This document shows, in pieces, positions 1,936 to 47,665 of a DNA stretch of 51,294 nt. The stretch is from Kordiimonas sp. Its GTDB lineage: Bacteria > Pseudomonadota > Alphaproteobacteria > Sphingomonadales > Emcibacteraceae. Each line of letters starts with the position of its first letter. Position 1 is the stretch's first letter. A program made the translations under genes and the position numbers. The stretch is from the NCBI GenBank assembly GCA_002700365.1, contig PADB01000005.1:1-51294 (forward strand), written 5' to 3'. A model generated the notes under the pieces. The model was not told the DNA's origin. It was given only the letters and a program-made list of their open reading frames with translations, and did no database searches.

Positions 1936-2052
1936 ATTTAAGTAAACTATAACTCACAACAATTCACATATCTATTTATTGTTGTTTTTCATATATTTAT
2001 AAAACTATCACTACTGTGGCTTATTGTCGTTTATTGCCATTTTTTATGGTTT

Positions 2053-2076: not shown

Positions 2077-2140
2077 TGTTTGTGACGACCTTCATATGTG
2101 ATAGAGTGCGATCATATTCAAAGCATATGAGGACGGAAAT

Positions 2141-3259: not shown

Positions 3260-3271
3260 ATCGTATGAATA

Positions 3272-10861: not shown

Positions 10862-10868
10862 CTTTACT

Positions 10869-10897
10869 ATTATAGGTATGAGTTTAATGTTTCGCAA
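10869..10897 (-). promoter_or_regulatory. Promoter of the czc operon, giving a near-leaderless transcript
   Basis: Minus strand: -35 TTGCGA (10892-10897), 17-bp spacer, -10 TATAAT (10869-10874). The ATG of the first gene follows the -10 by 7 bases, so transcription should start at or next to the start codon. The promoter lies just past the stop of copA, so the czc operon is transcribed independently of the copA operon. Confidence 0.65.
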
Positions 10898-10946
10898 GCA
10901 TTAAGTAATAGTTCAGCAGAAGCTGAGTTATTCTCTCATTCCCTAA

Positions 10947-13205: not shown

Positions 13206-13218
13206 TGCCCTATGTCCT

Positions 13219-14535: not shown

Positions 14536-14546
14536 TGTTCATACCT

Positions 14547-14972: not shown

Positions 14973-14993
14973 TCATTTGTCCTTTCAAATACA

Positions 14994-15026
14994 AGCATGC
15001 ACCTTAGAGTATACTCTAAGGTCAAG
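14994..15026 (-). promoter_or_regulatory. MerR-type promoter and palindromic operator
   Basis: Minus strand: -35 TTGACC (15021-15026), 20-bp spacer, -10 CATGCT (14994-14999). The spacer holds most of a perfect 22-bp palindrome (15001-15022; ACCTTAGAGTA and its complement). An over-long spacer with a central dyad is diagnostic of MerR-activated promoters, and the layout closely matches the ZntR-controlled zntA promoter. It drives merR, the APC permease and copA leftward. Confidence 0.85.
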
Positions 15027-15028
15027 AC

Positions 15029-16099
15029 TTAATGTTCATGGTCTCCATGGCCGTCATCTTCTTTACTAGTTTGTTTTGAATCATTGCTTGCAGGGCCAGA
15101 CGACCAATGGATGTGGGCAACTCGCCAGCCGTCCTTTGTATTGGTCAGCACCATGGTTTCCATAAGTTTTGAATGAACATTAGTTCCCCGGAAAAGGCCG
15201 TTGCTGACAATTTCAGTAACAATCCAGGCAGTATCTCCAGATACATGAACCTGCTGGTCATTTACGGAATCCTCAACTGCTGCAACAAACTCCATATCGG
15301 AAACCATATGGTGTGAGGCATACTCATCCAAAGATCGCTCTGCATTTCCACCTTCTGAGATAAAAACATCAGGGAGCAACAGGGCTCTGATAGCATCCTC
15401 ATCTTTGTTCTTCAGAGCTTCGCGAAATGCCTTGACTACACCTGCCGGTTCAAGGGGATTGATAAACTCTTCAATAATCGCTGTCTCTGTATCGTGAGTG
15501 CTATTATGAGCGTTTTCTTCTTCATGGTTGTGGTCACCATGCGCGTGATCACTGTTGTGTTCAGGTGATGTTTCTTCTTTTTGATGCTCATTATGGATTG
15601 CGCCATGTTCTTCGCCTTCACCATGAGAGTGGCTACCATGACCACCGTCACCGCTTACTTCAGGCATGCGCATAACGCCAAGGCCATGGCGATAAACTGC
15701 CTCGCCGCCTTTGAAACCCGTGACCGCCAATAAGCCAGTAGCAATTAGAATACAGGCAATAAATAGAGGGGATGCTTTATCGGCAGTCCGGTGCTTGGCT
15801 AGCGACCAAACTGCCAATAAGGCAAATAGGCTGGCCGCCCCTAACGCCCAGTTTCTGTGGTCTGTCATCGCGGCATGTGATGGGCCGTCATGAGCTACTG
15901 TATTATAGGCATAGAAACCTGCCGCAACGGTGCCAATTGTTATTGCTACTCCCAGCCATAAATTCCAGCGGGCGACAACAAATAATTGCTCTTTTTTCAG
16001 CAGGGTTGATGCCAGAAACATCACCCCTGAGACACTCAGCAACGCTACTGAAAAGTGTACAAAAATAGGATGCCAGTTCGGTATGATTTCTATGCTCAT
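15029..16099 (-). CDS. Membrane protein: DUF2231 domain fused to a SnoaL/NTF2-like domain by a His-rich linker
   Basis: 356 residues in three parts. Residues about 5-130 hold four hydrophobic segments and start with PNWHPIFVHFSVALL, the DUF2231 pattern with conserved His. Residues about 148-205 are a His/Glu/Asp-rich linker (GGHGSHSHGEGEEHG and more). Residues about 212-330 look like a SnoaL/DUF4440 NTF2-like fold (VVKAFREALKNKDEDAIRAL ... WRVAHIHWS). The C-terminus ends in another His/Asp cluster. It is the last gene of the cus operon, 21 bp after cusF. It may be a membrane-anchored periplasmic metal buffer; the NTF2-like part could bind metal or a small ligand. No catalytic role can be read from it. 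Confidence 0.75.
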   Translation of the reverse strand: MSIEIIPNWHPIFVHFSVALLSVSGVMFLASTLLKKEQLFVVARWNLWLGVAITIGTVAAGFYAYNTVAHDGPSHAAMTDHRNWALGAASLFALLAVWSLAKHRTADKASPLFIACILIATGLLAVTGFKGGEAVYRHGLGVMRMPEVSGDGGHGSHSHGEGEEHGAIHNEHQKEETSPEHNSDHAHGDHNHEEENAHNSTHDTETAIIEEFINPLEPAGVVKAFREALKNKDEDAIRALLLPDVFISEGGNAERSLDEYASHHMVSDMEFVAAVEDSVNDQQVHVSGDTAWIVTEIVSNGLFRGTNVHSKLMETMVLTNTKDGWRVAHIHWSSGPASNDSKQTSKEDDGHGDHEH

Positions 16100-16120
16100 G
16101 ATTATTCTCTCTCTTTTATT

Positions 16121-16549
16121 TTAATGATTATGATTGCCATGGCCCTGCTCATGAGCGTCACCATGGTTCATTTGTTTGTGCATTGAATGATTACCAGCGC
16201 CAACTACCATCACTTTTGTGATGCGGTAACGCTTGTCTTCACCGAGCTTGATATGGAACTTGATGTTTTGGCCAGGCTGCAGCTCAGTGAGGTTCACACT
16301 GCGGGCGACCTCAAGGTCCATTTTCATTGCTGGCCACTTCAGTTCAGGGATTGGCCCATGCGATAAGTTGATAACCCGCGCATCTAAATCAATAGAGTGG
16401 ACAACACCTTCCCCTATGGCTTCCATGTGGCCTTGCTTCATTTGAACTTTATCTTGCCCGTGATCATGTCCAGCATAAGCAGGCGCAATAAAAGCCGCGC
16501 CCATAAGTGTTACGGTTGTTAACATCAGTGTATTTTTAAGCAGTTTCAT
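16121..16549 (-). CDS. cusF: CusF-like periplasmic copper-binding protein
   Basis: About 142 residues from the ATG at 16549, which has AAGGAG nine bases upstream and opens a signal peptide ending in PAYAGHDH. The small OB-fold domain carries the CusF copper site: a His, then HGPIPELKWPAMKMDL with Trp and two Met residues that bind Cu(I)/Ag(I) by thioether and cation-pi contact. The C-terminus has extra His/Met (NHSMHKQMNHGDAHEQGHG). It should carry Cu(I) or Ag(I) to the CusB/CusA pump in the periplasm. Its start overlaps the end of cusA by 14 bp. Confidence 0.9.
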   Translation of the reverse strand: MKLLKNTLMLTTVTLMGAAFIAPAYAGHDHGQDKVQMKQGHMEAIGEGVVHSIDLDARVINLSHGPIPELKWPAMKMDLEVARSVNLTELQPGQNIKFHIKLGEDKRYRITKVMVVGAGNHSMHKQMNHGDAHEQGHGNHNH

Positions 16550-19500
16550 GGTTGCTTTCTCCTTCATTTTTACTTTGGTTTGAACTGAATCTGCGGCCTT
16601 CCCAGATGTAATAAACAACGGGAATAACAATCAGAGTCAGAATTGTGGTAGTGGTCATACCGCCTATCATTGGCAAAGCAATTCGGCGCATAACATCAGA
16701 ACCAAGCCCTTCGGTCACAAATATTGGCGCGAGGCCAACCATTGTTGTGCACACCGTCATAAGCTTAGGTCTCACGCGCAGAACTGCCCCGTGGATAACG
16801 TCTTCAAGCAAGTCAGAAAGTGATTTGGGTGGGTGCTCACGCACTTGTTGGTCAATATAGATCAACATGACAACAGCGGTTTCTACTGCAATACCCGCTA
16901 AAGCAATGAAACCCACACCAACAGCAACCGAAAAGTTGTATCCAGCCAGATAAAGAGCCCATACACCGCCAATCAAACCAAATGGTAATGACAGCATAAT
17001 CATAAGCGTTCTATCAAGCCGACCAAAGTGCACCATCAATAAAGTGAAAATGATAAAGATGGCAGCAGGCACTGCAATTTGCATTCTGCTCTTTGCTTCT
17101 AGCATTTGCTCAAACTGACCAGACCAGATGAGTGCATAACCAGAAGGCAGATCAATTTTTGAATTTACAATTTCCTGCGCTTCTTTAACGTATGAGCCAA
17201 TGTCACGACCTTCAATATCGACAAACACCCACCCTGTTAGGCGTGCGTTCTCGCTTTTGATCATTGGTGGGCCTTCAACAAATTCAATCTTTGCTAACTC
17301 ACCAAGAGGAATATGCTGGCCCTGAGGTGTCGGGATTAAAATATCCTGCAAATCGCTAGGCTCTTCCCGGAAGGGACGGTCATAACGCAACATGATGTTG
17401 TAGCGCTCTCGCCCTTGAATAGACTCTGCCATTTTCATACCGCCTAGAGCCGTCCCGATAATATTCTGGAAAACTCCAAGGTCAATATTGCGTCGTGCTA
17501 GTTCATCCCGATCAGGCGTGACTTCAAGGTATTTACCACCCGTCACCCGGTCAGCAAACGCTGATCTGGTTCCTGGCACATCTTTGATAGCGGCCTCAAT
17601 ATCAACAGCTACACGACCAATCGTTTCCAAGTTGTCACCCGCAATTTTAATACCTATAGGCGTGCGGATACCTGTAGAAATCATGTCCATACGGATTTTA
17701 ATCGGGTACCCCCATGAGTTAACAACCCCCGGCAACTTAACACGTTTGTTAAGGTCTTTAATCAGGGCCTCAACATCCATACCTTTTCGCCATTCATCTC
17801 TTGGCTTAAGGCGTATCCAGGTCTCAATCATTGAAATAGGTGCCGGGTCGGTCGCTGTATCTGCGCGGCCAACTTTACCAAAGACATGATGCACCTCAGG
17901 AACCTGACGGATCATTCTGTTGGTCTGCTGAAGCACTTCCTTTGCCTTAGTAATTGAAACACCAGGCAAAGTAGTTGGCATGTAAAGCAGCTCCCCTTCA
18001 TAAAGGGCAGGCATAAATTCTGAGCCTGTTTTAGCCAGCGGCAAAGCCATCGAAACCAGTAAGGCACCGGCAATGATGATGGTTCGCCACTTCCACTTCA
18101 GCGCACTTTTCAGGATTGGTTCATAGATATGGATAAACCAGCGGTTAATAGGGTTTTCTTCCTCCTTACGAATTTTACCCCGTATCAGCCACAACATCAG
18201 AACAGGTACCACCGTCACCGACAGTATTGACGCAAAAGCCATGGCGTAGGTTTTTGTGTAAGCTAACGGCGAGAATAACCGGTAAGACTGACCAGTTAAC
18301 GCGAATACTGGCAGGAACGACACGGTTATAATCAACAGAGAAAAGAACAGCCCTGGACCAACCTCTTTTGTTGCCAAAAGAATTGCTGCATTCTTATCAG
18401 CCCGCGTTGCAGTTTTTGGGAGTTCTGATAACTTTCTGTGCGCATTCTCCACCATAACAATGGAAGCATCGACCATTGCGCCAATCGCAATAGCAATCCC
18501 ACCCAAAGACATGATGTTTGCCGTAATGCCTTGTGCCGACATAACTATGAAGGCTGCAAGAATTGCCAGTGGCAGCGTGACAATGGCAACAAAAGCTGAC
18601 CTTGCGTGCAACAGGAATATCAGTGAAACGAGGGCAACAACAATCCCCTCTTCCAAAAGCTTATGGGCCAGATATTCAATTGCCCCTTCAATTAGAGGAG
18701 CCCGGTCATATACCGGTACAATCTCCACACCTTCAGGTAAGCCATGCTGAAGCTCTTCCAGCTTTTCTTTAACGCCCTTAATAACGTTAAGGGCATTTTC
18801 ACCCGCACGCATCACAACAACACCGGCTACAACTTCACCTTCGCCGTTCAGTTCAGTCACGCCCCGGCGCAGCTCTGGCCCTTCAATAACACGAGCCACA
18901 TCTTCAAGCTTTACAGGTGTACCATCATTGGCATAGAGAACTATTTTTTGGAGCTCTTTTAGATTGGTCACATACCCCTTTGAACGGATCATCAGCTCCA
19001 TCTCAGCCTTTTCAATGACGCGCCCACCAGCATCCATACTGGCATTTCTGACCGCTTCCATTAGGCGTTTTAAAGGGATGTCAAATGCCCTCAGGCGGTT
19101 AGGATCAATCAGAACCTGATATTCTTTAACAAACCCGCCAACCGATGCCACTTCCGAGACACCTGACACTGTGGCAAGTTCGAATTTTAAGAACCAGTCT
19201 TGAAGGCTGCGAAGTTGCGACAAGTCATATTTGCCGCTTTTATCAATCAAGGCATATTGATAAACCCAGCCAACACCCGTGGCATCAGGGCCGATTTGAG
19301 GCTGCACACTCGCAGGCAGATCACCTTGAATTTTAGATAAGGCCTCAACTACCCGACTTCGCGCCCAATATTGATCAATACCGTCTTCAAAAATAATATA
19401 GACAAACGATGTACCAAACATTGAATAGCCGCGAACGTTTTTTGTTTTGGGCAGTCCAAGCATCGTGGTTGATAAAGGGTATGTGACAAGGTCTTCGACA

Positions 19501-19730
19501 ATTTGCGGAGATTGCCCAGCAAAATCAGTGCGAATAATAACCTGTGTGTCGGACATATCCGGGATAGCATCAAGCGGCGTTTTCTGCACAGAAAGAACAC
19601 CCGCGACAAGTAATGCCAGCATCATCATGCCAACCAATAATTGGTTGTGAACTGACCAATCGATCACCTTTGCAACGAATGATTTGGTCGGGTCGTGAGA
19701 TAAATGGTTATCTTTATTAGTGGTTTGCAT
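16536..19730 (-). CDS. cusA: Heavy-metal RND efflux pump, CusA type (HME4)
   Basis: About 1064 residues with twelve predicted membrane segments and two periplasmic loops. The TM4 signature GGIAIAIGAMVDASIVMVEN is the HME4 (Cu/Ag) form, with one Asp and one Glu, and contrasts with the HME1 form of the czcA gene at 4844. The start was set at 19730 (MQTTNKDNHLSH) because AAGGGGG lies six bases before it; the frame could extend eight residues to 19754. It overlaps the 3' end of cusB. It exports Cu(I)/Ag(I) from the periplasm with CusB and CusC. Confidence 0.93.
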   Translation of the reverse strand: MQTTNKDNHLSHDPTKSFVAKVIDWSVHNQLLVGMMMLALLVAGVLSVQKTPLDAIPDMSDTQVIIRTDFAGQSPQIVEDLVTYPLSTTMLGLPKTKNVRGYSMFGTSFVYIIFEDGIDQYWARSRVVEALSKIQGDLPASVQPQIGPDATGVGWVYQYALIDKSGKYDLSQLRSLQDWFLKFELATVSGVSEVASVGGFVKEYQVLIDPNRLRAFDIPLKRLMEAVRNASMDAGGRVIEKAEMELMIRSKGYVTNLKELQKIVLYANDGTPVKLEDVARVIEGPELRRGVTELNGEGEVVAGVVVMRAGENALNVIKGVKEKLEELQHGLPEGVEIVPVYDRAPLIEGAIEYLAHKLLEEGIVVALVSLIFLLHARSAFVAIVTLPLAILAAFIVMSAQGITANIMSLGGIAIAIGAMVDASIVMVENAHRKLSELPKTATRADKNAAILLATKEVGPGLFFSLLIITVSFLPVFALTGQSYRLFSPLAYTKTYAMAFASILSVTVVPVLMLWLIRGKIRKEEENPINRWFIHIYEPILKSALKWKWRTIIIAGALLVSMALPLAKTGSEFMPALYEGELLYMPTTLPGVSITKAKEVLQQTNRMIRQVPEVHHVFGKVGRADTATDPAPISMIETWIRLKPRDEWRKGMDVEALIKDLNKRVKLPGVVNSWGYPIKIRMDMISTGIRTPIGIKIAGDNLETIGRVAVDIEAAIKDVPGTRSAFADRVTGGKYLEVTPDRDELARRNIDLGVFQNIIGTALGGMKMAESIQGRERYNIMLRYDRPFREEPSDLQDILIPTPQGQHIPLGELAKIEFVEGPPMIKSENARLTGWVFVDIEGRDIGSYVKEAQEIVNSKIDLPSGYALIWSGQFEQMLEAKSRMQIAVPAAIFIIFTLLMVHFGRLDRTLMIMLSLPFGLIGGVWALYLAGYNFSVAVGVGFIALAGIAVETAVVMLIYIDQQVREHPPKSLSDLLEDVIHGAVLRVRPKLMTVCTTMVGLAPIFVTEGLGSDVMRRIALPMIGGMTTTTILTLIVIPVVYYIWEGRRFSSNQSKNEGESNHETA

Positions 19731-21408
19731 GAGCACCCCCTTGTGGCATTTCATTCATTTTAGGGGCTTCGGCTTCAACTTTATCAGGCCATTCAATCTG
19801 CATTGGATGACCAGCGCCATATGGGTTCATGGCTTCATTTTCCAATTGCAGCCAGTAACGCTCTAGGCCATGTGCCATATAGAGCTTTAAACCTTTACTT
19901 TCATAGTGGTTTGGCTTGCCACCTAACAGCCATGGCTTAAGAGCAACCACCAACGCATTAAGTGTTTGCTGCCATTCTTTATCCGTTACATTGTTTTGTG
20001 CTTTCTTGAGGGCCGCCTCTGCATCCTGCAAAACAAATTGCAGCTTGGTACCTCTAAATACCGGCATCAAATGATCACCCAGCGTTATTGCTGGCATAAT
20101 CATATTTGTGCGCGGTGTGCGGTCAGAAACAAGTTCTTGCTGAATGTAAACTGCTGCATCAACCAAATGGTCAATCATGGCCAGTTGATCACTGCTGACT
20201 TCCAATAATGAGAGCGGCATTTGCATACGCTCCATCTTACGGAATGACTCTCGTAGGGCACTTTCTGAATCAATCAGGAATTGGCCACTAACAACAATCT
20301 CATCCCCTTCAGACAGGCCTTCCAGCACTTCTGTCCGGCCCTTATATTTCAGACCAGAAAGAACCCGACGAGGCTCAAAACGCCCCTGGCCCAAAGCAAC
20401 CACAACAAAGTCACCGTCTTTGCTTTTTAGAATTGCGTCACTTGGGATAGATAATCTGCGCTTCACGCCTGTTTCAAATTCAACATCGGCATAAGCCCCT
20501 GGTAACAATTTGCCCTCAGTATTCTGGAGGACAAGACGAATACGCCCAGTGCGTGTCGCTCTATCAATGGTAGGGTATATATAATCTATAAAAGCGGCTT
20601 GATCTGTAATACCCAAAGCAGGCAACGACACCTTGGCAATTGTCTGCCTGGTTATGAATGGTATATCTTGCTCAGCAACACTTACATCAACCCAAACCGA
20701 GTCATAATTCTGAAGCGTCATCAGGTTCATACCAGGTTTGGCAAAACTACCTTCCCGAACATTAATGGCGCTGATCAGCCCATCTACTTCAGCATAGTAA
20801 GGCACACTGTTAAACGGCTTGCGGCTGGCTCGAACTTCCTCAACCGCGCGTCTCTGCATTCCTAGCGAAACCAAGCGTTTAAAAGCAGAATCAATCCGAC
20901 CGGTAATCCCTGTTTGCAATGCACTAACATAGTCCTGCTGAGCAGAAATGAGCGCAGGGCTGTATAGTTTAAAGAGCATGTCGCCCTTTTTCACACTATC
21001 GCCCACAGCCTGGGTTTTAAGTTCCTCAACCCAGCCTTCAACACGTGCAGAAATATCAAACTGCAAGCGCACATTTTCAGCCACATCACCATAACTACGA
21101 ACCAATGTTCCAAAACTGGCCATCTGCGCATTTTCCGAACGCACACCAGTATTTTGGATTGTTTCAGGGTCAATGGTAACAACAGTCCGCGTCGGGTTTT
21201 GGCTTTTATCCATCTCGTCAGACGCATGATTGCCCGCTTCTTCATCGTTCTCAAGTGCGACAAGGTCCATTCCACAGATCGGGCATGTTCCTGGGCGGTC
21301 TGCCACATAATGCGGGTGCATTGGGCAGGTATATTTTTCTGCCTGCGCAACAGCAGGGAATGCCATAAAATTAAAAACTAAAAACAATATAGGGATCAGA
21401 TATCTCAT
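19717..21408 (-). CDS. cusB: RND periplasmic adaptor, CusB type with N-terminal metal-binding domain
   Basis: 563 residues. After the signal peptide (about 1-23) comes a heavy-metal-binding domain (KYTCPMHPHYVADRPGTCPICGMDLV, split here between Cys-Pro-Met-His-Pro and Cys-Pro-Ile-Cys-Gly-Met), like that at the start of CopA. The adaptor core follows: barrel-sandwich hybrid, short alpha-helical region (SAQQDYVSALQTG), beta-barrel and membrane-proximal domains to about 400. The C-terminal 140 residues are an extra helical domain, longer than classic CusB and similar to the C-terminal extensions of other CusB-like proteins. It couples CusA to CusC and receives copper from CusF. It overlaps cusC by 4 bp (ATGA). 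Confidence 0.9.
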   Translation of the reverse strand: MRYLIPILFLVFNFMAFPAVAQAEKYTCPMHPHYVADRPGTCPICGMDLVALENDEEAGNHASDEMDKSQNPTRTVVTIDPETIQNTGVRSENAQMASFGTLVRSYGDVAENVRLQFDISARVEGWVEELKTQAVGDSVKKGDMLFKLYSPALISAQQDYVSALQTGITGRIDSAFKRLVSLGMQRRAVEEVRASRKPFNSVPYYAEVDGLISAINVREGSFAKPGMNLMTLQNYDSVWVDVSVAEQDIPFITRQTIAKVSLPALGITDQAAFIDYIYPTIDRATRTGRIRLVLQNTEGKLLPGAYADVEFETGVKRRLSIPSDAILKSKDGDFVVVALGQGRFEPRRVLSGLKYKGRTEVLEGLSEGDEIVVSGQFLIDSESALRESFRKMERMQMPLSLLEVSSDQLAMIDHLVDAAVYIQQELVSDRTPRTNMIMPAITLGDHLMPVFRGTKLQFVLQDAEAALKKAQNNVTDKEWQQTLNALVVALKPWLLGGKPNHYESKGLKLYMAHGLERYWLQLENEAMNPYGAGHPMQIEWPDKVEAEAPKMNEMPQGGAHANH

Positions 21409-22649
21409 TCTGACACCTCCTCATAACTATCCATTAAATTTGAATTGAACTCTGCAGAGCGGCGCACAAGAGCCTCTTGTGAAACAGCCAACTGCGCCAG
21501 AATATTCAGATGATCAATCCTAGCCAAAAGCACCGCATCAAGATTTTCAGTGCCAGCCTCATAGTTTCGCTGGGCAGCTTCAATCTTTTCTTCCATGGCA
21601 GTGCCTTTGCTCTTGAGAACCTCGACATTTTTGGCAGCTGCATCACGGTTGCTTTGGATTGAAATCATCTCACGAAGCCATGCACGGCGCATGTCCTCAA
21701 AGTTCAAGCTTGCACTTCGCTTACGCTCTTTCGCTGCTTTCAAACGAGGGTACTGGCTACTATGAGCCCAAAGGGGGATGCTCATCTGTAGCTGGACTGA
21801 AAACCAGTCATCTCCGGTAAAAGCACCAACCGCACTGGCCTCACGCTGCTTATAGGTAGCTGACAACCCAAAGTTTGGCAGAAAGTCAGCATTGGCAATA
21901 TCAACCCCTTTCTCAGAAATATTTATATCCTCAGCGGCGATAGCTACGGGGTAAAGTACAAGTGGGTCTTGATGCCAAGAAAGTAAGGGGACTAGCGGGA
22001 CTTCGATTGCAGGCACTTCCTCAACCAGCCTCACAAACTCGGCTTCGATTGAAACAAGCTGTGCTTCTAGGTCATTCAATCTGCGCTCAGCCTCGGCACG
22101 TTCAACATCCACTTCGGAAAAGCGCTGATAAACAGAGCGGCCAGATTCAATCTGTCCTTTGAAAGTATTTTCGAGCTCCTGATAATAACCAAGCTGCTGG
22201 TGAAGTAGGTCAATTTGCTTTTTTACGCTTTTGTATTCTGCCAATTTGGCAATCAACATAAAGCGCAGGCGAGCATTCGTATATTCAGCCATTAGCCTGC
22301 TTTTTGCCGACATTTGTGTAAAGCGTGCAGATTTTGCCTTTCTTACAGAAGGGTTAGGGATTTTTTGTGTAAACCCAACAACCTTAGATGACGGTAAAAA
22401 CCTGTCAAAGGCCGGGTCAGAAATGGGCACATTGTCCACCCCGATAAACAGCGTAGGGTCAGGAAGGCCCAACTCACCTCTTGCCTGATGTTTTAACGCC
22501 TCCGTCTCAGCCAGCACACCCATAACCTGAGGGTGTTGGCTAAGTCGCTCTATATAGTCTTCAAACGTATCGGCCTGAGCTGCTGATGTGCCCCAAAATA
22601 GTGATGTGACAATCGTAAAAACAACAGCGCCGTATTGTGCTTTTCGCAT
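21405..22649 (-). CDS. cusC: Outer-membrane efflux channel, TolC/CusC family
   Basis: About 414 residues from the ATG at 22649, preceded by AAGGAGATCAC. A signal peptide (MRKAQYGAVVFTIVTSLFWG to AAQA) is followed by long helical segments and two efflux-protein repeats (for example AQRNYEAGTENLDAVLLARI). There is no lipobox, unlike E. coli CusC. It forms the outer-membrane exit of the Cu/Ag pump and is coupled to cusB by a 4-bp overlap. Confidence 0.88.
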   Translation of the reverse strand: MRKAQYGAVVFTIVTSLFWGTSAAQADTFEDYIERLSQHPQVMGVLAETEALKHQARGELGLPDPTLFIGVDNVPISDPAFDRFLPSSKVVGFTQKIPNPSVRKAKSARFTQMSAKSRLMAEYTNARLRFMLIAKLAEYKSVKKQIDLLHQQLGYYQELENTFKGQIESGRSVYQRFSEVDVERAEAERRLNDLEAQLVSIEAEFVRLVEEVPAIEVPLVPLLSWHQDPLVLYPVAIAAEDINISEKGVDIANADFLPNFGLSATYKQREASAVGAFTGDDWFSVQLQMSIPLWAHSSQYPRLKAAKERKRSASLNFEDMRRAWLREMISIQSNRDAAAKNVEVLKSKGTAMEEKIEAAQRNYEAGTENLDAVLLARIDHLNILAQLAVSQEALVRRSAEFNSNLMDSYEEVSE

Positions 22650-22732
22650 TTTGTGATCTCCTTTATTGTGCGAATAAACATGCACTTAGAGCCCGCAACA
22701 GCACTGTTGCAGGCTAAATTCAGAGATCAAAA

Positions 22733-23128
22733 TCAGATACGAATACGCTGTGTCGTTAGATAAGTAAGCTGGGAGTTAATGCGTGGAGCATTAAAAGGTG
22801 GGCCACGAATATCTTGAATATTGCCAGGCTCGTACACATAGGGGTTTGTTAAATCAGCCCATGCCAAGTCTATAGTTGAATGGTCAGAGTTATGATCTAG
22901 GCTAATGCCATCATCAGCGGGGAATAAATCAATCCCCACACAGTCGATGTTTGTCATCAGATTGCATTCAGCATCATCTTGGCCATCTTGGTGGCACGGG
23001 GGAAGCTCTTTAGCTGACACTTCTGACGATGATGCCGCATGAGCCTGCATCGGACAAAACAGCATTTCACACGTCATAAATGACGTGAAAATCATAAACA
23101 CCATTAATGTCGAAGCAATGTATCTCAT
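22733..23128 (-). CDS. Small exported Cys/His-containing protein leading the cus operon
   Basis: 131 residues. A hydrophobic export segment (MRYIASTLMVFMIFTSFMTC) continues into CEMLFCPMQAHA; the mature part has scattered Cys and His (LPPCHQDGQDDAECN) and a late RGPPFNAPR. It matches in size, layout and position the small protein heading the czc operon (10499-10861), though the residues are largely different. Such genes, some classed near DUF2946, often precede RND metal pumps. The ATG lies nine bases after a TATAAT box, so the transcript is nearly leaderless. A metal-binding or sensing role is inferred. Confidence 0.65.
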   Translation of the reverse strand: MRYIASTLMVFMIFTSFMTCEMLFCPMQAHAASSSEVSAKELPPCHQDGQDDAECNLMTNIDCVGIDLFPADDGISLDHNSDHSTIDLAWADLTNPYVYEPGNIQDIRGPPFNAPRINSQLTYLTTQRIRI

Positions 23129-23137
23129 AACCCTATT

Positions 23138-23165
23138 ATTATAGGGAGTAATTTGAGACCTACAA
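23138..23165 (-). promoter_or_regulatory. Promoter of the cus operon with dyad around the -10 box
   Basis: Minus strand: -35 TTGTAG (23160-23165), 16-bp spacer, -10 TATAAT (23138-23143). The -10 box lies in an inverted repeat CCCTAT-aata-ATAGGG (23131-23146). The start codon follows nine bases after the -10, giving a 5' leader of only a few bases. The dyad is a candidate operator. No cus regulator gene such as CusRS is present nearby. Confidence 0.6.
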
Positions 23166-23339
23166 GTTTAAAGTTTAGATAAGTTTTTATTTACAGACTT
23201 GAGTTGCCACCAAAAATAATAATCTTGGATTTCTAGCATTAAAAAATCTGGCGAACATGTGGGCTTGTAAACATTCTGATCACTACCCACAATAAATCAT
23301 CAGCATTCTTCACTACCTTTCCGATCTATAGACATCTTG
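23160..23339. other. Intergenic stretch without a recognised gene
   Basis: This AT-rich stretch separates the divergent cus operon from the structured leader at 23340. Apart from the -35 box at its left edge I see no convincing coding frame or repeat. It must hold the promoter for the rightward gene at 23419. Confidence 0.4.
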
Positions 23340-23418
23340 TCTTAGCTTGAATGCTGGATTTTCATGAAACCGCAAAACAGGGAACCACTACCGGTAACGG
23401 AATAGTGGGCTACAAGCT
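23340..23418 (+). promoter_or_regulatory. Structured 5' leader, copy 1
   Basis: About 75 bases before the ATG at 23419 resemble the sequence before the small gene at 47454. Shared blocks in order are CTTGAA-GCTG-ATTTTCA, AAAC, ACAGGGAACC, a hairpin, and GCTATGAGCA holding the start codon. The hairpin here is CCACTA-CCG / GTAA loop / CGG-aa-TAGTGG (23385-23408). In the other copy the paired bases differ but the stem, a bulge on its 3' side and a GNRA loop are kept, which points to conserved RNA structure. It ends ten bases before the start codon, so control of translation is likely. Confidence 0.6.
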
Positions 23419-23973
23419 ATGAGCACCCCCACCACAACAGAACTTCTGGATGCAATAGGCGTTCTATACTCGCATATTCTAATCTCAATAAATACAAATC
23501 ACCCCAAAGCACCAGTGGGTACCTCACTGCACGACTTTGCTGATGGAAATGGGCGAATACCCGCTTATAAACATATTAACCCCAACGGGAGCATTGGCGG
23601 CTGGGTCGCTGTAACGGCTTATGTAGCACCAACCTGCCACATTGCAAAAGACGCAACAGTCTTTGGCTATGCGCGTGTTGAGGATTACGCCCGGATTGAA
23701 GGGTCCGCAAGGGTGCATGAGTTTGCTCGAGTTTATGGACATGCAAAAATCCGAGGTGATTCACAAATCTCAGGTTATGCACGTATTTTTGAGAATGCCA
23801 CTGTCTGTGGCTATGCCCAGGTTACTGGTAAATCCATGGTTTTCGGTAATGCTGTTATAGCAACCTATGCCAAAATAATGGATTTTGCCAAAATTTTTGG
23901 CCATGCTGTCATATCTGGAGTAGTCAGAATTGATGGAATAACAGAAGTTTCAGGCCATACAATGCTTAAGTAA
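23419..23973 (+). CDS. Hexapeptide-repeat (left-handed beta-helix) protein
   Basis: 184 residues. From about residue 65 the sequence is a run of imperfect hexapeptides of the form [V/A/I]xGxAx (VFGYARVEDYARIEGSARV, then VYGHAKIRG, ISGYARIF, VCGYAQV, VFGNAVI and so on), which fold into a parallel left-handed beta-helix. The N-terminal 60 residues are not repetitive. Proteins such as E. coli YdcK and many phage or island proteins share this build. Some are acyltransferases, but no catalytic His is obvious here, so a structural or binding role is equally likely. It stands alone between a structured leader and a strong terminator. Confidence 0.75.
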   Translation: MSTPTTTELLDAIGVLYSHILISINTNHPKAPVGTSLHDFADGNGRIPAYKHINPNGSIGGWVAVTAYVAPTCHIAKDATVFGYARVEDYARIEGSARVHEFARVYGHAKIRGDSQISGYARIFENATVCGYAQVTGKSMVFGNAVIATYAKIMDFAKIFGHAVISGVVRIDGITEVSGHTMLK

Positions 23974-23990: not shown

Positions 23991-24016
23991 AAAATGCCCC
24001 CTACGAGGGGCATTTT
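23991..24016 (+). terminator. Rho-independent terminator after the beta-helix gene
   Basis: Perfect 10-bp stem AAAATGCCCC / GGGGCATTTT with a 6-base loop, followed by GCGTTTTT. The A/T ends make it usable in both directions. It isolates the beta-helix gene from the HTH gene downstream. Confidence 0.85.
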
Positions 24017-24113
24017 GCGTTTTTGCGCTCCATCTGCTTAATTGCTGTTTCCGCCGAAAACGGCTATATTACGTGCGTCCGATTTTTCTTTTCTGCTTTT
24101 TTTCTATACCCAG

Positions 24114-24341
24114 ATGGAGAAAATATTGGTCGAATACACAGACCTTCGGACCGTAAAGCAGTTGGCGAAAGAAGCGCCATTTGTGACTGAAAGCACAATC
24201 AGGTGGTGGATATACCATGCAAACAGCAATGGTTTTGATGCTGTCCTGATTAAAATCGGTGGGCGGATTTACATTGATAAAAACGCCTTTAACAAATGGC
24301 TTGAAGGCCAGCGCCTGGCCGCTCCTGGCGACGCTGCTTAA
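24114..24341 (+). CDS. Small HTH protein, paralogue of the excisionase-like gene at the right end
   Basis: 75 residues from the ATG at 24114; a longer frame from 24042 overlaps AT-rich leader sequence. It has a winged-HTH/excisionase-like pattern: ESTIRWWIYHANSNGF, then LIKIGGRIYIDKNAFNKWLE. The protein at 50583-50807 shares RWWIY, NSNGF, RIYID and the final W-E, so the two are clear paralogues. They could be regulators or recombination directionality factors. It is followed by a terminator at 24365 and stands as a single-gene unit. Confidence 0.8.
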   Translation: MEKILVEYTDLRTVKQLAKEAPFVTESTIRWWIYHANSNGFDAVLIKIGGRIYIDKNAFNKWLEGQRLAAPGDAA

Positions 24342-25240: not shown

Positions 25241-27547
25241 CTATCCCTTCTTGGTGAAGGCAATAGTCCTGCTGCAATGATTGACAAGTTCCTGATCATT
25301 GATGCTCTCTGTCGCATATGCAGGGTTTGTTTCGTGGTGAAACTTGTTGGCATAGTCGAGTAAACTACGCAGCTCATCTGCATCTGCCTGTTTCAAAATT
25401 GGATTTCCCGCTGCCAGCGCCTGCACACATTCACCATGGAATGGCCCCAACATTTTACCTGGAGGAAAATTAGCAGGGTAGGCAACACGCAGAAAGGCTT
25501 CCAGAACATAGCGCAGGGCAGTAGCAACCTCTCGTGCCTTGCTTTGATCGGACTGGTTAAGATACTGCTGAATCAGGGCATGTCGCTTATCATGCTCAGT
25601 GATGCAATCCTGCGTTACGTCCCAAGTATCAATGATTGATGACTGACCGCTTCGGATGATGTGTAGCGCCGCGCGGGCAGTTTTATCTGCACCTTCCCAA
25701 ACCTGACACAAAAACGGTTTTGAGTGTGAAAGAAGGATAACTTGCTGAACTCGCTGCGCTAATCTCCGAACTTCTTGAATGGTTGCGAGTGATCTATGCT
25801 CATCCAAACTGGTCATCGGATCATCAATAACAACGATCTTTTGTGCCAGACCTGCATCCTGATCAAGAGACGCAAAAAAGAAGGCAAGAGCCAGGGTGTT
25901 TCTATCTCCGGCGCTCATAGTGTTCCTGAATGAAGGGCCGTTATTGCTGGCAAGCGGCACAGAAACATTGTTGATCAATACATTGTATGTGCATGATGAT
26001 CCGCCTCTGTTATTTTGAGCAGACACGCTATCCAACCGAAAACCTGCATTGAACTTACCCAAGTAATCGTTGATTGCCTGCTGATACGTGGCGAAGATAC
26101 TGGCACGGTATTGTTCAAGATCAGTCTTTGCCTTATCGCGCTTTACCTCTGTTTTTTTCTTCTCGTTTTTCTCTGCCAGATAGGCATCGCAATGCGTTGC
26201 CACATCTGGTTCAAATCGCGCCTTGATCGTTTTCAATTTGTTCAAATCGGCCGTTAGCGTTGCCACATTGGCTGTGGCCGCTTTTTCTTTCACAGCCTTG
26301 ATCGGATCATTGCATTCGATCAGGCTTGAAGAGAGCCCTGCAATGGCTTCACGATACCCGTCATAGGATTTCACGGCCTCAAGAACATCCTCAGAAAGAG
26401 TCATCTTCTCAAGAGGTGAGGCCAGCTTTGCTCTCAAGATTTCAAGGATAGGTTCACGTGCTTCTTTCCAGGCGCGGGCAACCTCTGCTGTATCAACCTG
26501 AATTGCAGGAATATCCATGAATTTCCGCCAGAATTCACCGTTCTGAATTGCTTCACTGACAGCTCGTTCAAAGGCAGATTGGATTTCTCCCTTGTGAGCA
26601 TCAGCAATCGACTTTCCAATCTCGGTGATAGCCTGCTTCAGGGAAGTATAAGCCTCGCTGAAATAGGTCTCATAGTGAGCGATAATATCTGAATCTTTCA
26701 GCTCTTGGTCACAGAACGGGCATCGCTGTTCATCATCAGAAGAGTCGGCAATCTTCTGCATCCCCTCACCAATCCAAGACTCGGCACCTTTACCCAATTT
26801 TTCAAGATGTTGCTTCACTCTGGCTGTTGCTTTGACCTGCAATCCAGGCAAGTCACGTTGAAGGATTGCTTCAATCTCAGCGGTATCGAATGCAGGCAGT
26901 GATAGGGGCTTAAACTCGCCTTGCTTATTGATTGGATCAGCGTCTTTCGATGCGGCCAGATTTCGTTCAGCCTGCTGAATCTCATCATCTATATTGGGAT
27001 TCTGATGCAACGCGCAGAAGTCCTCAACATTCATTGCGCCTCGCGCCTTGGCGGGAATAGCCGCTTCCTTGGTTTTTAGCGTGCGATTATGCTCTTCGAT
27101 TTTGCTGATATGACCTTTCAGGGCTTCATTCAGAGCAATACCCTGTGCCCCTAGAATAAGCTCATGCAACTTCTGTTTATGGCCAGAATCAACTGCAACG
27201 CCCGAATAAACATTCTCGACCACAAAGTGATCGTCGAAAATAGCGATTTCCGGGAGATGGGTCTGCCATGCACCATTTTGAAAAATGAACGATTGCTGGC
27301 CATTTGCCTGCACAACGATATGTGGATCGGCATTCGCATGAGGGGCAGTGCTGGATCGCAAGCGTTTTCGTTCTTCGATCAATGTTGGATTATTGGTACT
27401 CAAAGAGCGTAGCAAATTGGCGAAGGTTGTCTTCCCTCGTCCATTCTCGGCATATATCAGTGTCATGCCAGAAAAGCTCGTTTGCTGCCCTGGGGAGACG
27501 TTATCGAATTGCCCAACATTTCTGATCAGTTGAATGTGCTCGATCAT
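25241..27547 (-). CDS. AAA/ABC-type ATPase with zinc-hook Cys pair and possible anticodon-nuclease end (RloC/PrrC-like)
   Basis: 768 residues. Walker A at about 33-41 (AENGRGKTT), a coiled-coil middle with a CPFC pair at 276-279, ABC signature SAGDRNTLA near 545-553, Walker B IVVIDDP 571-577 followed by D-loop TSLDE, and H-loop LLSHSKPF near 605. This is the build of COG4694/AAA_13 proteins such as RloC and PrrC, whose C-terminal domain cuts tRNA anticodons using Arg, Glu and His. Here the C-terminal 100 residues contain R679-xxx-E683 and a later HH (737-738), a possible match to that triad. It overlaps the GIY-YIG gene by 4 bp (ATGA) and is the last gene of the operon. If right, it would be a suicide or second-line effector. 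The ATPase call is firm; the nuclease call is tentative. Confidence 0.75.
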   Translation of the reverse strand: MIEHIQLIRNVGQFDNVSPGQQTSFSGMTLIYAENGRGKTTFANLLRSLSTNNPTLIEERKRLRSSTAPHANADPHIVVQANGQQSFIFQNGAWQTHLPEIAIFDDHFVVENVYSGVAVDSGHKQKLHELILGAQGIALNEALKGHISKIEEHNRTLKTKEAAIPAKARGAMNVEDFCALHQNPNIDDEIQQAERNLAASKDADPINKQGEFKPLSLPAFDTAEIEAILQRDLPGLQVKATARVKQHLEKLGKGAESWIGEGMQKIADSSDDEQRCPFCDQELKDSDIIAHYETYFSEAYTSLKQAITEIGKSIADAHKGEIQSAFERAVSEAIQNGEFWRKFMDIPAIQVDTAEVARAWKEAREPILEILRAKLASPLEKMTLSEDVLEAVKSYDGYREAIAGLSSSLIECNDPIKAVKEKAATANVATLTADLNKLKTIKARFEPDVATHCDAYLAEKNEKKKTEVKRDKAKTDLEQYRASIFATYQQAINDYLGKFNAGFRLDSVSAQNNRGGSSCTYNVLINNVSVPLASNNGPSFRNTMSAGDRNTLALAFFFASLDQDAGLAQKIVVIDDPMTSLDEHRSLATIQEVRRLAQRVQQVILLSHSKPFLCQVWEGADKTARAALHIIRSGQSSIIDTWDVTQDCITEHDKRHALIQQYLNQSDQSKAREVATALRYVLEAFLRVAYPANFPPGKMLGPFHGECVQALAAGNPILKQADADELRSLLDYANKFHHETNPAYATESINDQELVNHCSRTIAFTKKG

Positions 27548-28764
27548 CCAGCCACCTCATTTTTCTTCAAACAGGCTCCGCCTGGGTCATAGGCGTAGTC
27601 TGAAATAGTGCCGTCTTTGATTTTTTCGACCAATTCATCAATTACGAAAAGTGGCACCAGGAACCACTCGCGGGGAACGACGGGCTGGCCGAAGCGATCT
27701 TTGATCTGTACATCTAGCTGAGCGCGTTCAAAGAAGCGGTGAATAAGCTTTTCCAGCTTGGTTCGGTTGATATTGTAAAGCTCGTAAGTGGCAACAATTT
27801 CAACATCTGCCATCAAAAACGTTGGGTCTTTTGACGCACCCGCAATACGTTTATCAACACTTCCACCTGTAACCCCAATCTTATGAAGAACATCACGGTG
27901 TTCTTTTACCTGAGGGTGCTCAGACTTGCTTCTGAGAACATAAATCGTGCCGCTGGCCAGGTCGTCTTCGGCCTGAGTATCGGAAAATAGCGGCCCCATT
28001 GACGGGTCAGTAATAATGCGGCTGGCCTCATCCTTATAGAGGGCACGCTGCAAAGAGCGCAAAAGCAAATCGCTTTCCGTACCGTTGGAATAAATCACTC
28101 GCAGGCGTGCATCAGTATCACCGTTAGGGGCTTTTATTGGATCACCAACCTCAGCAATATAGGCCACCTGACCGCCCAGAATAAAGAATTGGCCTTTCGT
28201 TATGCTTGTTTTTGAAAACCCTGCATCCTTACGAATTTTAACAGTGTTACGAACTCCGTTATCAATATCTTTCTGCACGGCATCAAAGAGCGGTTTGAAT
28301 GTGTCAAAGTCCTCACATTTTGTGCGATTGGCAATTTCCTCGGCGGCACGAATTTCGGCACGTGTTTTCACATGGCGCAAGTTTCTCACGTCATTTTCGG
28401 CTGAAACTTCAACGCCTAGCTCAGCAAGAAGCTCATCATCGCTCAGACTATCCGCCTGGTTATCCGCCTCTGGCGAAGCTACACCAAGCAGACCTTGAAG
28501 ATCCATATCTGAGACCAGCTCATAGCATTCTTTCTGGCGGCGGATTTGATCCAGCCGCGTCGCATAAATACGCTCAAATATGTCTTTATCCTCGCCGTGA
28601 GCTGGGACGCGTCCATGTTCTTCCACAAAGCGTTGGATTTCTTCAAAGCCCGCGATAATGCGTTCCTCACGCGGGGTGCGGGCAGCGACCTTCTTGGCTT
28701 CAACCTCTACGCCCAATTCGGCGAGAAGCGCATCATCTTCATGTGTAAACTGTGACTTAGCCAT
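27544..28764 (-). CDS. GIY-YIG nuclease-domain protein (T5orf172/MUG113 type, YeeC-like)
   Basis: 406 residues. The C-terminal GIY-YIG domain spans about 272-372: GTIYVLRS, then KIGVTGGSVDKRI with the catalytic Arg, E338 (KLEKLIHRFF) and VPREWFLV. The N-terminal 250 residues hold a duplicated short motif LLAELGVEV at 13-21 and 112-120, perhaps a docking peptide. GIY-YIG domains hydrolyse DNA with one metal ion. Neighbours are a helicase upstream (8-bp overlap) and the AAA ATPase downstream (4-bp overlap). B. subtilis YeeC, with YeeA methylase and YeeB helicase, has a similar arrangement. It is the likely cleavage subunit of the system. Confidence 0.8.
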   Translation of the reverse strand: MAKSQFTHEDDALLAELGVEVEAKKVAARTPREERIIAGFEEIQRFVEEHGRVPAHGEDKDIFERIYATRLDQIRRQKECYELVSDMDLQGLLGVASPEADNQADSLSDDELLAELGVEVSAENDVRNLRHVKTRAEIRAAEEIANRTKCEDFDTFKPLFDAVQKDIDNGVRNTVKIRKDAGFSKTSITKGQFFILGGQVAYIAEVGDPIKAPNGDTDARLRVIYSNGTESDLLLRSLQRALYKDEASRIITDPSMGPLFSDTQAEDDLASGTIYVLRSKSEHPQVKEHRDVLHKIGVTGGSVDKRIAGASKDPTFLMADVEIVATYELYNINRTKLEKLIHRFFERAQLDVQIKDRFGQPVVPREWFLVPLFVIDELVEKIKDGTISDYAYDPGGACLKKNEVAG

Positions 28765-30808
28765 TGGCAGCCTCGGCTTTCATTCTTGCCAAGTAAGCAA
28801 CACCTTCGGCCATGCGTTTTTCCCACGCATCCGCAGAATCGAGCGCAGGCAAACGTCCCCGTTCCTGCTTGAATTTCAGGGCGCGTTTGGCAAGGTCACG
28901 CGCTTCTTCTGGAGTCAGGTTAACGCGCTTGGCTGCAATAACGGCTGCAACCTGTTTCAGGCTTTCTTCTGACATAGCCTTGGCAAGGATAGCATAGGCT
29001 TCACCAAATGGATTAATGCGGTCAATCAGATCAATATCCAACTCTCGCACGTCCATCGCAAATTTGCGTACGCCATCAATCAATGCAGTGTTGCCGCCCA
29101 GCTCACCTTCATCACCTGAGTTTGCAAATTCTTTGGCTTTCTGGGTCAGGTTCAGGGCAGCGATCGCATGTTGGCGAATGGCTTCCTGATCTTCTTCATC
29201 CAGCTCTGGGTAACGGTCTTTGACGATCTTACCCATCCGCACCTGGGTCAGCTCTTCAGGTACCATTTCTTCATCAAACAAGCCGCGCTCAAGGGCAGTT
29301 TTGTCCTGCACAAATGCGGTAATAACCTCGTTCAGGTCTTCCTGCACAATGCGCTGGGCATCATTGCTTTTCGGCTCTGCAAGACCCTTAATTTCAATCT
29401 GAAACTGGCCAGTCTCTTCATTAAAGCCGACGTTTTCCTTGTTTGGATCATACCCACCTTCACCATAGTCAAACCCTTCCACAGGGCCACTTGCGGCATT
29501 CTTGGGCGTAAAGTTGAACTTTGGTGCCAGCACTTGTTCCATCAGCAAGCTGGCTGCAATGGCCTTCAGGGTGTCGTTCACCGCATCTGTCACTGCTTCT
29601 TCTGAGGCATCAGGCTCCGCAATCAGGTTGGTGAAGCGGGCATGGGTTTTACCCTCAGCATCACGGGTTGCGCGGCCAATAATCTGGATGATTTCCGTCA
29701 GGCTGGCGCGGTACCCGATGGTCAGGGCATGTTCACACCAAATCCAGTCAAAGCCTTCCTTGGCCATACCAAGGGCAATAATAATATCCACATGGTCACG
29801 GTTATTCTTTTCTTCTGGCCGCTTCAGCGCGGCTGAAACCTTGTCGCGCTTGGCGGGGTCATCATCCACCAGGTCGGCAATTCGCAATATTTTGCGATCT
29901 TCACGGGCAACCAGGTGAAAACCTGTGTCTGGATCAATGCCTTTCCATTCACCCAGCTCTTCAATGATATGCTCAACTTCCTTGTGCTTATCCTTGGTGC
30001 TTTCACGGCTGTTTACATTGGGGATATGGATGATGGTTTTCTCACTCGGGTCCAACACTTCCAGAATGCTGTCAGCATATGATCCTGAATAGAAATAATA
30101 GCCAATATCGAGGCGCTTCAGGTGCTCATACCCATTAAGCTGCTCATAGTAAGTATAAGTCACCGTATCGAAATTAGCTTCATCTTCAGGGTTCAACACC
30201 GCAACAGCGTCGCCACGGAAGTATGAGCCTGTCATGGCCACAATATGCACTTTGTCACGGGCGATAAATTGGCCCAGGTGCGCCCCCAGCTTATTATCGG
30301 GGTTTGCGCTGACATGGTGGAATTCATCTACCGCGATCAGGCAGTTATCAAACACTCCAACGCCGTATCGGTCCACCGCAAAGCGGAAGGTAGAATGGGT
30401 GCAAACAAGCACCTGATCTTCACTGTCCAGAAATGCCTTAACCGAGTTGACCTTGCCGCCATCTTCCCCTGGGGCATTGCACAGGTTCCATTTTGGCTCC
30501 ACTTGCCAATCCCAGTAAAAACCATACTTGGTCAGCGGTTCATCATTAAAGCTGGAACCGATAGATTTCTCCGGCACCACAACAATCGCCTTATCAACCC
30601 CTTGGCTGTTCAGCTTATCAAGCGCTATAAACATTAAGGCACGGCTTTTGCCTGAAGCCGGTGGTGATTTAATAAGTAAATATTGCTCGCCGCGCTTCTC
30701 GAAGGCGCGTTCTTGCATGACGCGCATACCCAGCTCGTTAGACTTTTTGGCGCCGCCATTCTGTGCGTAATTCACCGAAACTGATGGGACCGATTTATGC
30801 TGGGTCAT
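28757..30808 (-). CDS. DEAD/DEAH-like superfamily 2 helicase (YeeB-like)
   Basis: 683 residues. Helicase motif I PPASGKSRA near 49-57, motif II DEFHH near 163, motif III-like AMTGSYFRGD, and a second RecA domain with ALGMAKEGFDW and motif VI QIIGRATRD. The C-terminal 250 residues are helical, without a recognised domain. It resembles restriction-enzyme translocases that work on double-stranded DNA. It is placed between the small Ala/Lys-rich gene (18 bp) and the GIY-YIG gene (8-bp overlap), suggesting one complex with the methylase and nuclease. Confidence 0.85.
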   Translation of the reverse strand: MTQHKSVPSVSVNYAQNGGAKKSNELGMRVMQERAFEKRGEQYLLIKSPPASGKSRALMFIALDKLNSQGVDKAIVVVPEKSIGSSFNDEPLTKYGFYWDWQVEPKWNLCNAPGEDGGKVNSVKAFLDSEDQVLVCTHSTFRFAVDRYGVGVFDNCLIAVDEFHHVSANPDNKLGAHLGQFIARDKVHIVAMTGSYFRGDAVAVLNPEDEANFDTVTYTYYEQLNGYEHLKRLDIGYYFYSGSYADSILEVLDPSEKTIIHIPNVNSRESTKDKHKEVEHIIEELGEWKGIDPDTGFHLVAREDRKILRIADLVDDDPAKRDKVSAALKRPEEKNNRDHVDIIIALGMAKEGFDWIWCEHALTIGYRASLTEIIQIIGRATRDAEGKTHARFTNLIAEPDASEEAVTDAVNDTLKAIAASLLMEQVLAPKFNFTPKNAASGPVEGFDYGEGGYDPNKENVGFNEETGQFQIEIKGLAEPKSNDAQRIVQEDLNEVITAFVQDKTALERGLFDEEMVPEELTQVRMGKIVKDRYPELDEEDQEAIRQHAIAALNLTQKAKEFANSGDEGELGGNTALIDGVRKFAMDVRELDIDLIDRINPFGEAYAILAKAMSEESLKQVAAVIAAKRVNLTPEEARDLAKRALKFKQERGRLPALDSADAWEKRMAEGVAYLARMKAEAANG

Positions 30809-30826
30809 GCTGATACCTCTTTATCT

Positions 30827-31078
30827 TTATTTCTTCTTATCGCGGCGTTGAGTTAATGCCGACGCGGCGGCTGACTTGGCAGCCTTTGATGCTGTCTTGC
30901 TTTGCAGGGTCTTTGCGGCCTTACTGGCCGCAGCCGCAGATGTTTCCTTGGTTGTTTTACGCTGTGCCAGCGCAGAACCCGCAGCAGACTTCGCAGCCTT
31001 GCTGGCAGATTTTGACTGCAAGGTTTTTGCCGCCTTGCTGGCCGCTGTTTTCCCCGTTTTTTCAGTGTTCTTTGGCAT
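30827..31078 (-). CDS. Small Ala/Lys/Ser-rich repetitive protein
   Basis: 83 residues made mostly of A, K and S, with an internal duplication. The unit ASKAAKTLQSKSASKAAKSA, followed by a [G/A]SAL[A/T]QR tail, occurs twice with few changes (about 13-40 and 51-78). It is very basic and probably helical, like the tail of histone H1. The ATG lies 2 bp after the methylase stop and the gene ends 18 bp before the helicase, so it is clearly in the operon. Short single-unit proteins of this type are seen beside many unrelated genes; a doubled form in a restriction operon is less usual. DNA binding or bridging is inferred. Confidence 0.75.
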   Translation of the reverse strand: MPKNTEKTGKTAASKAAKTLQSKSASKAAKSAAGSALAQRKTTKETSAAAASKAAKTLQSKTASKAAKSAAASALTQRRDKKK

Positions 31079-31080
31079 GG

Positions 31081-46901: not shown

Positions 46902-47388
46902 TCTCCCATGCCGTTTTAGCGAAGCGCTGGCATGACCACTTTAGCCTGCTGCCAAGCACAAGATGAGCCCGACTTGAGACCTCCCCCCAATCTTCAGATG
47001 GGGATGGTCGAATGCCTAAAGGGTCTTTTCGCAAGGAAACTCAAAGCCATTCGGGCTGAAGGGTTTTCGTATGCGAAAATACATCTTGCAGTCAGCCTGA
47101 GCTGCCAAGCACCTCCGCCTTTTATGGAATATATCAATAATTCCAATACTATAAACGACAGCGACACTCTATAATACGCATACACAAACAGCAAGAGGCA
47201 ATAGCACACAGCAAGCCACAATACTGGCCATTACGGCGCAACACCGTCAGGAATGACTTGGGAAAAGTAGCTGACAGGTGACTGAACAGGCCGTTCAAGG
47301 GCTTGCAAGCGCCAAAAATCGTACCCACACCTTAGGTATCAACACTTCTTCAGTACCGTTTCAAACGCCTTGGCTTATGCCTGCGCTT
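46902..47388. other. Non-coding region, candidate oriT
   Basis: No convincing gene, apart from a weak rightward frame (46932-47174). The stretch lies just upstream of mobC, where oriT of MobA/MobC elements normally lies, and contains short inverted repeats (for example CCCCATC near 46996 against GATGGGG, and GGCTTGCAAGC near 47302). The exact nic site cannot be fixed without a family match. Confidence 0.45.
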
Positions 47389-47453
47389 GAACGCTGATTT
47401 TCACAAACTTCAAACACAGGGAACCGCCACGGAAACGTGCGCGGCATTTTGCT
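47389..47453 (+). promoter_or_regulatory. Structured 5' leader, copy 2
   Basis: This stretch corresponds to 23340-23418. It shares CTTGAA-GCTG-ATTTTCA, ACAGGGAACC and GCTATGAGCA with the ATG. The hairpin is CCGC-CACG / GAAA loop / CGTG-c-GCGG (47424-47444). Most stem bases differ from copy 1 while pairing, a bulge on the 3' side and a GNRA loop are kept. Confidence 0.6.
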
Positions 47454-47621
47454 ATGAGCAATCAATCAAGACTCACTCTCAAACCCGAAACTGTAGGAAT
47501 AAAATCCATGCTAAATGATGGCCGAAGAATATACGGTCTTGGGTCCGATAATAATATCTATCGTTGGTTTGACTCAGATGGCTTCTGGGCTCTTCATTCA
47601 CTCAAAAAGCCACGAGCGTAA
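47454..47621 (+). CDS. Small protein behind the structured leader
   Basis: 55 residues, start MSNQSRLTLKPETVG, with NDGRRIYGLGSDNNIYRWF and a basic end (KKPRA). It begins with the same ATGAGCA context as the beta-helix gene at 23419 and ends shortly before a strong terminator (47641). No family is recognised. The combination of leader, short frame and terminator makes it likely to be a real single-gene unit. Confidence 0.6.
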   Translation: MSNQSRLTLKPETVGIKSMLNDGRRIYGLGSDNNIYRWFDSDGFWALHSLKKPRA

Positions 47622-47640
47622 ATCAACTGTTAACGAACAA

Positions 47641-47665
47641 CCGTTCCCGAAAGGGAGCGGTTTTT
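47641..47665 (+). terminator. Rho-independent terminator
   Basis: Stem CCGTTCCC / GGGAGCGG with a GAAA loop, followed by TTTTTG. It ends the small-gene unit at 47454-47621 and separates it from the convergent parDE operon. Confidence 0.85.

Follow-up and report, generated by a model that had tools for sequence, protein, structure and literature searches.

The closest described parallels to the leaders reported here are T4 genes 25 and 38, in which, as reviewed, a hairpin cuts the distance between the Shine-Dalgarno (SD) sequence and the AUG from 27 to 11 nt (gene 25) and from 22 to 5 nt (gene 38), and mutations that destabilise these hairpins lower initiation (PMC3014915). The two leaders that we describe, A and B, share with these genes the order of an SD-like site, a hairpin and then the AUG, and their effective spacing of 11-12 nt compares with the 11 nt given for gene 25 (PMC3014915). 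However, they do not belong to phage genes, the same module stands before two unrelated genes, the raw gap is longer (36 and 32 nt, versus 27 and 22 nt in T4), and the leader is known from sequence alone. The Frpo/ssi promoters of plasmid leading regions are a further parallel, given that they too are repeated upstream elements with a hairpin in a conjugative element (PMC11541004), yet neither a long shared promoter-bearing stem nor -35/-10 boxes were found in A and B.

The window, by which we mean the whole stretch of DNA analysed, is contig C10 in its full length of 51,294 bases, one of the 12 contigs that make up a 2.4 Mb genome. It carries an integrative conjugative element, next to which lies a tRNA-Met gene. 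The element encodes a relaxase, a NikA-like protein, two coupling proteins, two RND efflux pumps, a cation-efflux protein, a P-type metal ATPase, MerT, ArdA, an MmeI-type restriction enzyme and ParDE. The 47 bases at 1890-1936 are identical to the right-hand end of a related element, that of genome G020, and 51026-51214 aligns with this same end at 85.7%. Comparison of the two window ends found no exact repeat between them, so the att sites are putative.

The homology of leader A (23345-23425) and leader B (47385-47460) is real (Table 1). Comparison by blastn within the window joins 23284-23399 to 47322-47437 (70.8% over 120 columns, E 2.8e-9), the local alignment score of A and B is 51 (32 or less for the best of 2000 base shuffles), and a covariance model built from A alone gives B an E of 1.4e-7 (40 bits), while no other match in the window is better than E 0.9. 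The initial annotation, which reported blocks shared before the starts at 23419 and 47454, is thus borne out, as GCTTGAA, GATTTTCA, ACAGGGAACC and GCTATGAGCA are common to both copies and the resemblance exceeds chance by all of these measures; it gave the leader an extent of some 65-80 bases, where homology is indeed found, but some 60 more bases on the upstream side belong to the shared stretch. The similarity starts at least at 23284/47322 and extends one base into the third codon, and consequently the unit is upstream DNA, leader and start, not the leader alone. From 23270/47298 to the third codon, 109 of 180 alignment columns are identical (gaps counted), and 50 of these 109 bases lie in runs of at least 7, a figure reached by 0.085% of shuffled columns (p 0.00085; for runs of at least 10, p 0.048). 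The element thus has a promoter-leader that is repeated and whose hairpin has been maintained; to date it has turned up in no more than two elements, which are related. The promoter is putative, as no sigma-70-like site and no -35/-10 boxes were found inside either copy. The products of genes A and B show no similarity to each other, in keeping with the earlier view of them as unrelated. A Streptococcus relative was rejected as support for the start of gene A, its annotated CDS beginning 63 bases before the match.

Table 1 Coordinates of the features of the two leader copies and of landmarks of the element in the window
Feature	Coordinates	Strand	Method
Copy A: upstream part of shared stretch, putative promoter region, no promoter motif found	23284..23344	+	blastn
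Copy A: conserved block GCTTGAATGCTGGATTTTCA	23345..23364	+	
Copy A: invariant ACAGGGAACC, with AGGG as the best SD-like site within 60 bases of the AUG	23377..23386	+	
Hairpin A: 9 bp, GTAA loop, AA bulge on 3' side	23385..23408	+	
Copy A: invariant GCTATGAGCA with start codon (ATG at 23419)	23416..23425	+	
Gene A: 184 aa, weak YdcK beta-solenoid repeat match below Pfam cut-off	23419..23973	+	
Terminator-like hairpin downstream of gene A	23991..24016	+	
Copy B: upstream part of shared stretch	47322..47384	+	blastn
Copy B: conserved block GCTTGAACGCTGATTTTCA	47385..47403	+	
Copy B: invariant ACAGGGAACC, with AGGG as the best SD-like site within 60 bases of the AUG	47416..47425	+	
Hairpin B: 8 bp, GAAA loop, C bulge on 3' side	47424..47444	+	
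Copy B: invariant GCTATGAGCA with start codon (ATG at 47454)	47451..47460	+	
Gene B: 55 aa, no family found	47454..47621	+	
Terminator-like hairpin downstream of gene B	47639..47662	+	
Tyrosine integrase	2141-3259		
tRNA-Met gene	51170-51246		

As had been proposed, each copy has, at the same place, a hairpin that ends in a GNRA loop and is bulged on its 3' side, between the invariant ACAGGGAACC and the invariant GCTATGAGCA (A: CCACTACCG GTAA CGG-AA-TAGTGG; B: CCGCCACG GAAA CGTG-C-GCGG), with a predicted outer pair probability of 0.99 in A and 0.98 in B. The hairpin is not rare in absolute terms, though it is stabler than most base shuffles: the hairpin segment is equalled by 0.27% (A) and 0.64% (B) of 20000 shuffles, among 20,506 contig windows of 31 bases, 1.3% equal the stability of A and 0.8% that of B, and a single hairpin of at least 7 pairs with a GNRA loop occurs in 75 of 17,088 contig windows. 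At the scale of the whole leader, the 85 nt of A are more stable than shuffles (z -2.92, 1 of 200), and the 75 nt of B show no excess stability (z -0.37, 77 of 200). A longer conserved fold was considered and rejected, as A can pair CAGCATTC with GAATGCTG upstream and B does not.

The hairpin survives better than expected from simulated drift. When A is the starting point and drift is simulated as 4-7 substitutions plus 3 deletions, at least 8 pairs remain in 1.0-2.1% of cases (0.9-2.0% with GC bias), and the stability of B is reached in 0.04-0.07% (0.03-0.075% with GC bias). In a model-fitted alignment of A, B and a third copy, from genome G570, none of the nine pairs is broken, each of the 25 cells that could be scored is paired, and two pairs have changed in both partners; a hand alignment yields three such doubly changed pairs. 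The initial annotation read such changes as covariation, but the pair count is equalled by 55 of 500 shuffles and, given only two independent sequences, we grade the covariation as no more than suggestive.

The best explanation of the leader hairpin, which we advance tentatively, is a hairpin-bridged (“split”) ribosome-binding site, building on the observed homology, extent, hairpin, positions and spacings. A module of ~140-155 bp, consisting of a putative promoter region, a 5' leader, the start codon and the second codon, is present twice in one integrative conjugative element, ahead of two unrelated single-gene cargo units, and the second copy would have arisen either by duplication inside the element or by two imports. 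Transcription would start upstream of the leader, AGGG would serve as the SD, and the hairpin would form a structured spacer in the mRNA between the SD-like CAGGGAA and the AUG, aiding translation and not repressing it. The SD-AUG spacing is 36 nt in A and 32 nt in B without the hairpin, and 12 and 11 nt with it (B by hand), and it is this shorter gap that the ribosome would meet. With an anti-SD of the E. coli type, which may differ from that of the host, no site within 60 bases of either AUG pairs better than AGGG (-5.1 kcal/mol), which immediately precedes the hairpin; within 20 bases of the AUG, the best value is only -3.3 (A) and -1.7 (B). A hairpin-bridged site is favoured because the SD-like site is too far from the AUG without the hairpin and none as good lies within 20 nt, and because the hairpin brings the gap near a functional length, a feature kept in A, B and the G570 copy (two of them independent). 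The near-equal effective spacing, the outcome of the drift simulations and the outer pair probabilities point in the same direction.

Other observations count against it. The G's of the SD-like site are predicted to be mostly paired (each unpaired with a probability of 0.05-0.49 over four assumed 5' ends), which argues against a split site, and their predicted partners differ between A and B. AGGG is also a weak SD. Moreover, 7 of 23 other genes in the window lack an SD better than -2.9 kcal/mol within 20 bases (14 of the 23 have one of -5.0 kcal/mol or better), on starts taken from an open reading frame list in which some may be wrong, so that a missing SD is not unusual in this window. Finally, the conserved GCTTGAA..GATTTTCA block is left unexplained by a bridging hairpin. 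If true, the proposal would place an SD-AUG-bridging hairpin outside T4-like phages, and would reveal a ready-made expression module that a conjugative element has put to use with more than one unrelated cargo gene. Such elements could then render newly acquired genes translatable by this route. Its reach is limited by its rarity, with two related element lineages in the samples searched.

The suggestion of a shared regulatory RNA made in the initial annotation stands as regards a duplicated structured leader of a mobile element before unrelated genes, but not as regards regulation, since nothing points to a ligand, a protein or a second conserved fold. The order of AGGG, hairpin and AUG suits a hairpin-bridged ribosome-binding site that acts constitutively at least as well, and the leader is probably such a site, not a proven regulatory RNA. 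The recurrence of the GNRA loop, the 3' bulge and the invariant flanks before two unrelated genes, together with conservation that goes beyond the needs of an SD, could alternatively mean that a protein or other factor, from the element or from the host, binds the hairpin and so controls how both cargo genes are translated, forming a small RNA-level regulon. We consider this unlikely, as no candidate factor was identified and the leader precedes only two of the element's genes. The leader's ACAGGGA fits the CsrA consensus ACARGGA; unlike in CsrA/RsmA-controlled leaders, however, the GGA lies beside and not in the hairpin loop, and the family (PF02599) is without a match in the host's own genome (0 of 1, with 3 of 14 control genomes positive), making CsrA an unlikely factor. 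A broader proposal, of a previously undescribed leader RNA of conjugative elements in which a portable promoter-leader module, through a GNRA hairpin recognised by one element-encoded or host factor, would jointly control translation of several unrelated cargo genes, appears improbable.

Stable small hairpins in both leaders would also be consistent with a stability element whose only task is to shield or insulate the mRNA at its 5' end and which plays no role in initiation, yet this would explain neither why an invariant ACAGGGAACC stands immediately ahead of the hairpin nor why the distance to the AUG is nearly constant, and we regard it as doubtful. A plain duplication of the upstream region, with the hairpin as a functionless leftover, could account for there being two independent copies only, for covariation equalled by 55 of 500 shuffles, for a whole B leader that is not unusually stable and for the 0.8-1.3% of 31-base contig windows as stable as the hairpins; it is nonetheless very doubtful in view of the stem being kept in just 1-2% of drift simulations and of the clustering of long identical runs above that of shuffled columns. 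A single-strand DNA promoter of the Frpo/ssi kind, used on entry by conjugation, would suit a repeated upstream element within a conjugative element, with copy B just beyond the relaxase-NikA side, oriT presumably near B and ArdA near A. However, the short hairpin is the only single-stranded DNA helix common to A and B (a further helix occurs in A, not in B), neither copy has a sigma-70-like site, and B folded as DNA is no better than shuffles (z -0.56 and -0.83, versus -2.64 and -2.21 for A), which together make such a promoter extremely unlikely.

A third copy was sought in the window and the 2.4 Mb genome and none was found, and the model of A, run on this genome up to E 10, returns A and B and nothing else. 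A stretch at ~38320-38361 was rejected as a third, decayed copy and is not counted (it matches the end of leader A over 14 bases, E 1.1, with a stop after two codons); it holds a hairpin, CCGCCA/TGGCGG, followed by ACAAGCTATGAGCT, and may be a decayed copy or chance. In overlapping genome samples, model R2 (a covariance model built from both copies) matches 2 of 385 genomes of the class, namely the host's own and G570, and 1 of 396 of the order, its own (both with stricter filters that lose weak matches), 0 of 7 in the family of G020, 1 of 12 in the genus of G570 and 1 of 28 in the latter's order, G570 itself. The G570 copy is an orthologue of A in a related element, with three differences in the leader stretch, all outside the hairpin; similarity to gene A ends after ~58 codons, and the reading frame is cut short. 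This orthologue provides no independent structural evidence, and the structural case rests on two sequences. Where the initial annotation looked to homologues with compensatory changes, one more homologue has emerged, but with a hairpin identical to that of A; nor are the hits just decayed repeats lacking starts, the contrary outcome it had envisaged, as all three copies lie directly before a start codon, albeit with a shortened frame in G570. Rfam 15 detects a tRNA alone at gathering level in the window and no match up to E 1 in either 221-base leader stretch, consistent with the earlier statement that no named riboswitch or leader fits.

The exact pattern CAGGGAACC..CTATGAGC occurs in 1 of 246 genomes of the order (the host's own), in at least 118 genome-contig stretches and in 47 viral-contig stretches; among the matches listed, inspection by eye found the rest of the leader only at the window's own loci. 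A Bombella match (L083) looks like coding sequence and was rejected. The GCTTGAA-block pattern gave 22 viral stretches, and R2 over the 69 viral loci from both patterns reached a best E of 0.1; L178 and L180 were discarded for want of ACAGGGAACC. From 84 viral stretches with the pattern TTTTCA..ACAGGGAACC, R2 run on 79 gave two matches (best E 0.29), both inside long ORFs and not accepted, and on L303-L306, presumably four of the remaining stretches, its best E was 0.11 at L305, the letters of which resemble the L284 match. A match at L196 (E 0.15) lies inside a relaxase ORF and was likewise dismissed. DNA searches of plasmids and phages returned no match or short ones at E 0.9 or worse, and blastn with leader A in 11 genomes none better than E 0.2. 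In viral contigs, relatives of gene A were not found, and those of gene B amounted to two loci with 21 common residues inside another ORF, without the leader. The literature found by searches not specific to the leader does not mention it, which says little.

The related element in G020 has relaxase pieces 88% and 76% identical to those of the window, and its patchy matches span 27604 to 51214. Its homology breaks at 47280 and restarts at 48186, with other cargo at the place of copy B, and a search of this element for a leader copy found none. The G570 element (G570:C2:186001-222000, L310/L311) is 96.2% identical to window 10776-23594 and 83.8% identical to 1887-4170, integrase included; the integrase region and a metal-resistance block are common to this element and the window at 66-96% identity, suggesting shares of differing age.

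Further features of the element were noted in passing. Two T4SS-DNA_transf coupling-protein genes occur in the one element (34206-35747 and 48821-50530), and the relaxase (44429-46378) bears a Bartonella-type BID match behind its relaxase domain (Bep_C_terminal, 31 bits, cut-off 29.5). A defence-like block at 25241-33816 contains an AAA_13 protein, which matches the PADLOC candidate PDC-S06, a T5orf172 protein, a helicase-like protein and the MmeI-type enzyme, of type IIG. By blastn within the window, 24189-24278 matches 50658-50747 on the opposite strand (66.7%, E 4.5e-7); these stretches sit in small ORFs (24042-24341 and 50583-50807) without a Pfam family, which look like paralogous small DNA-binding or excisionase-like genes.
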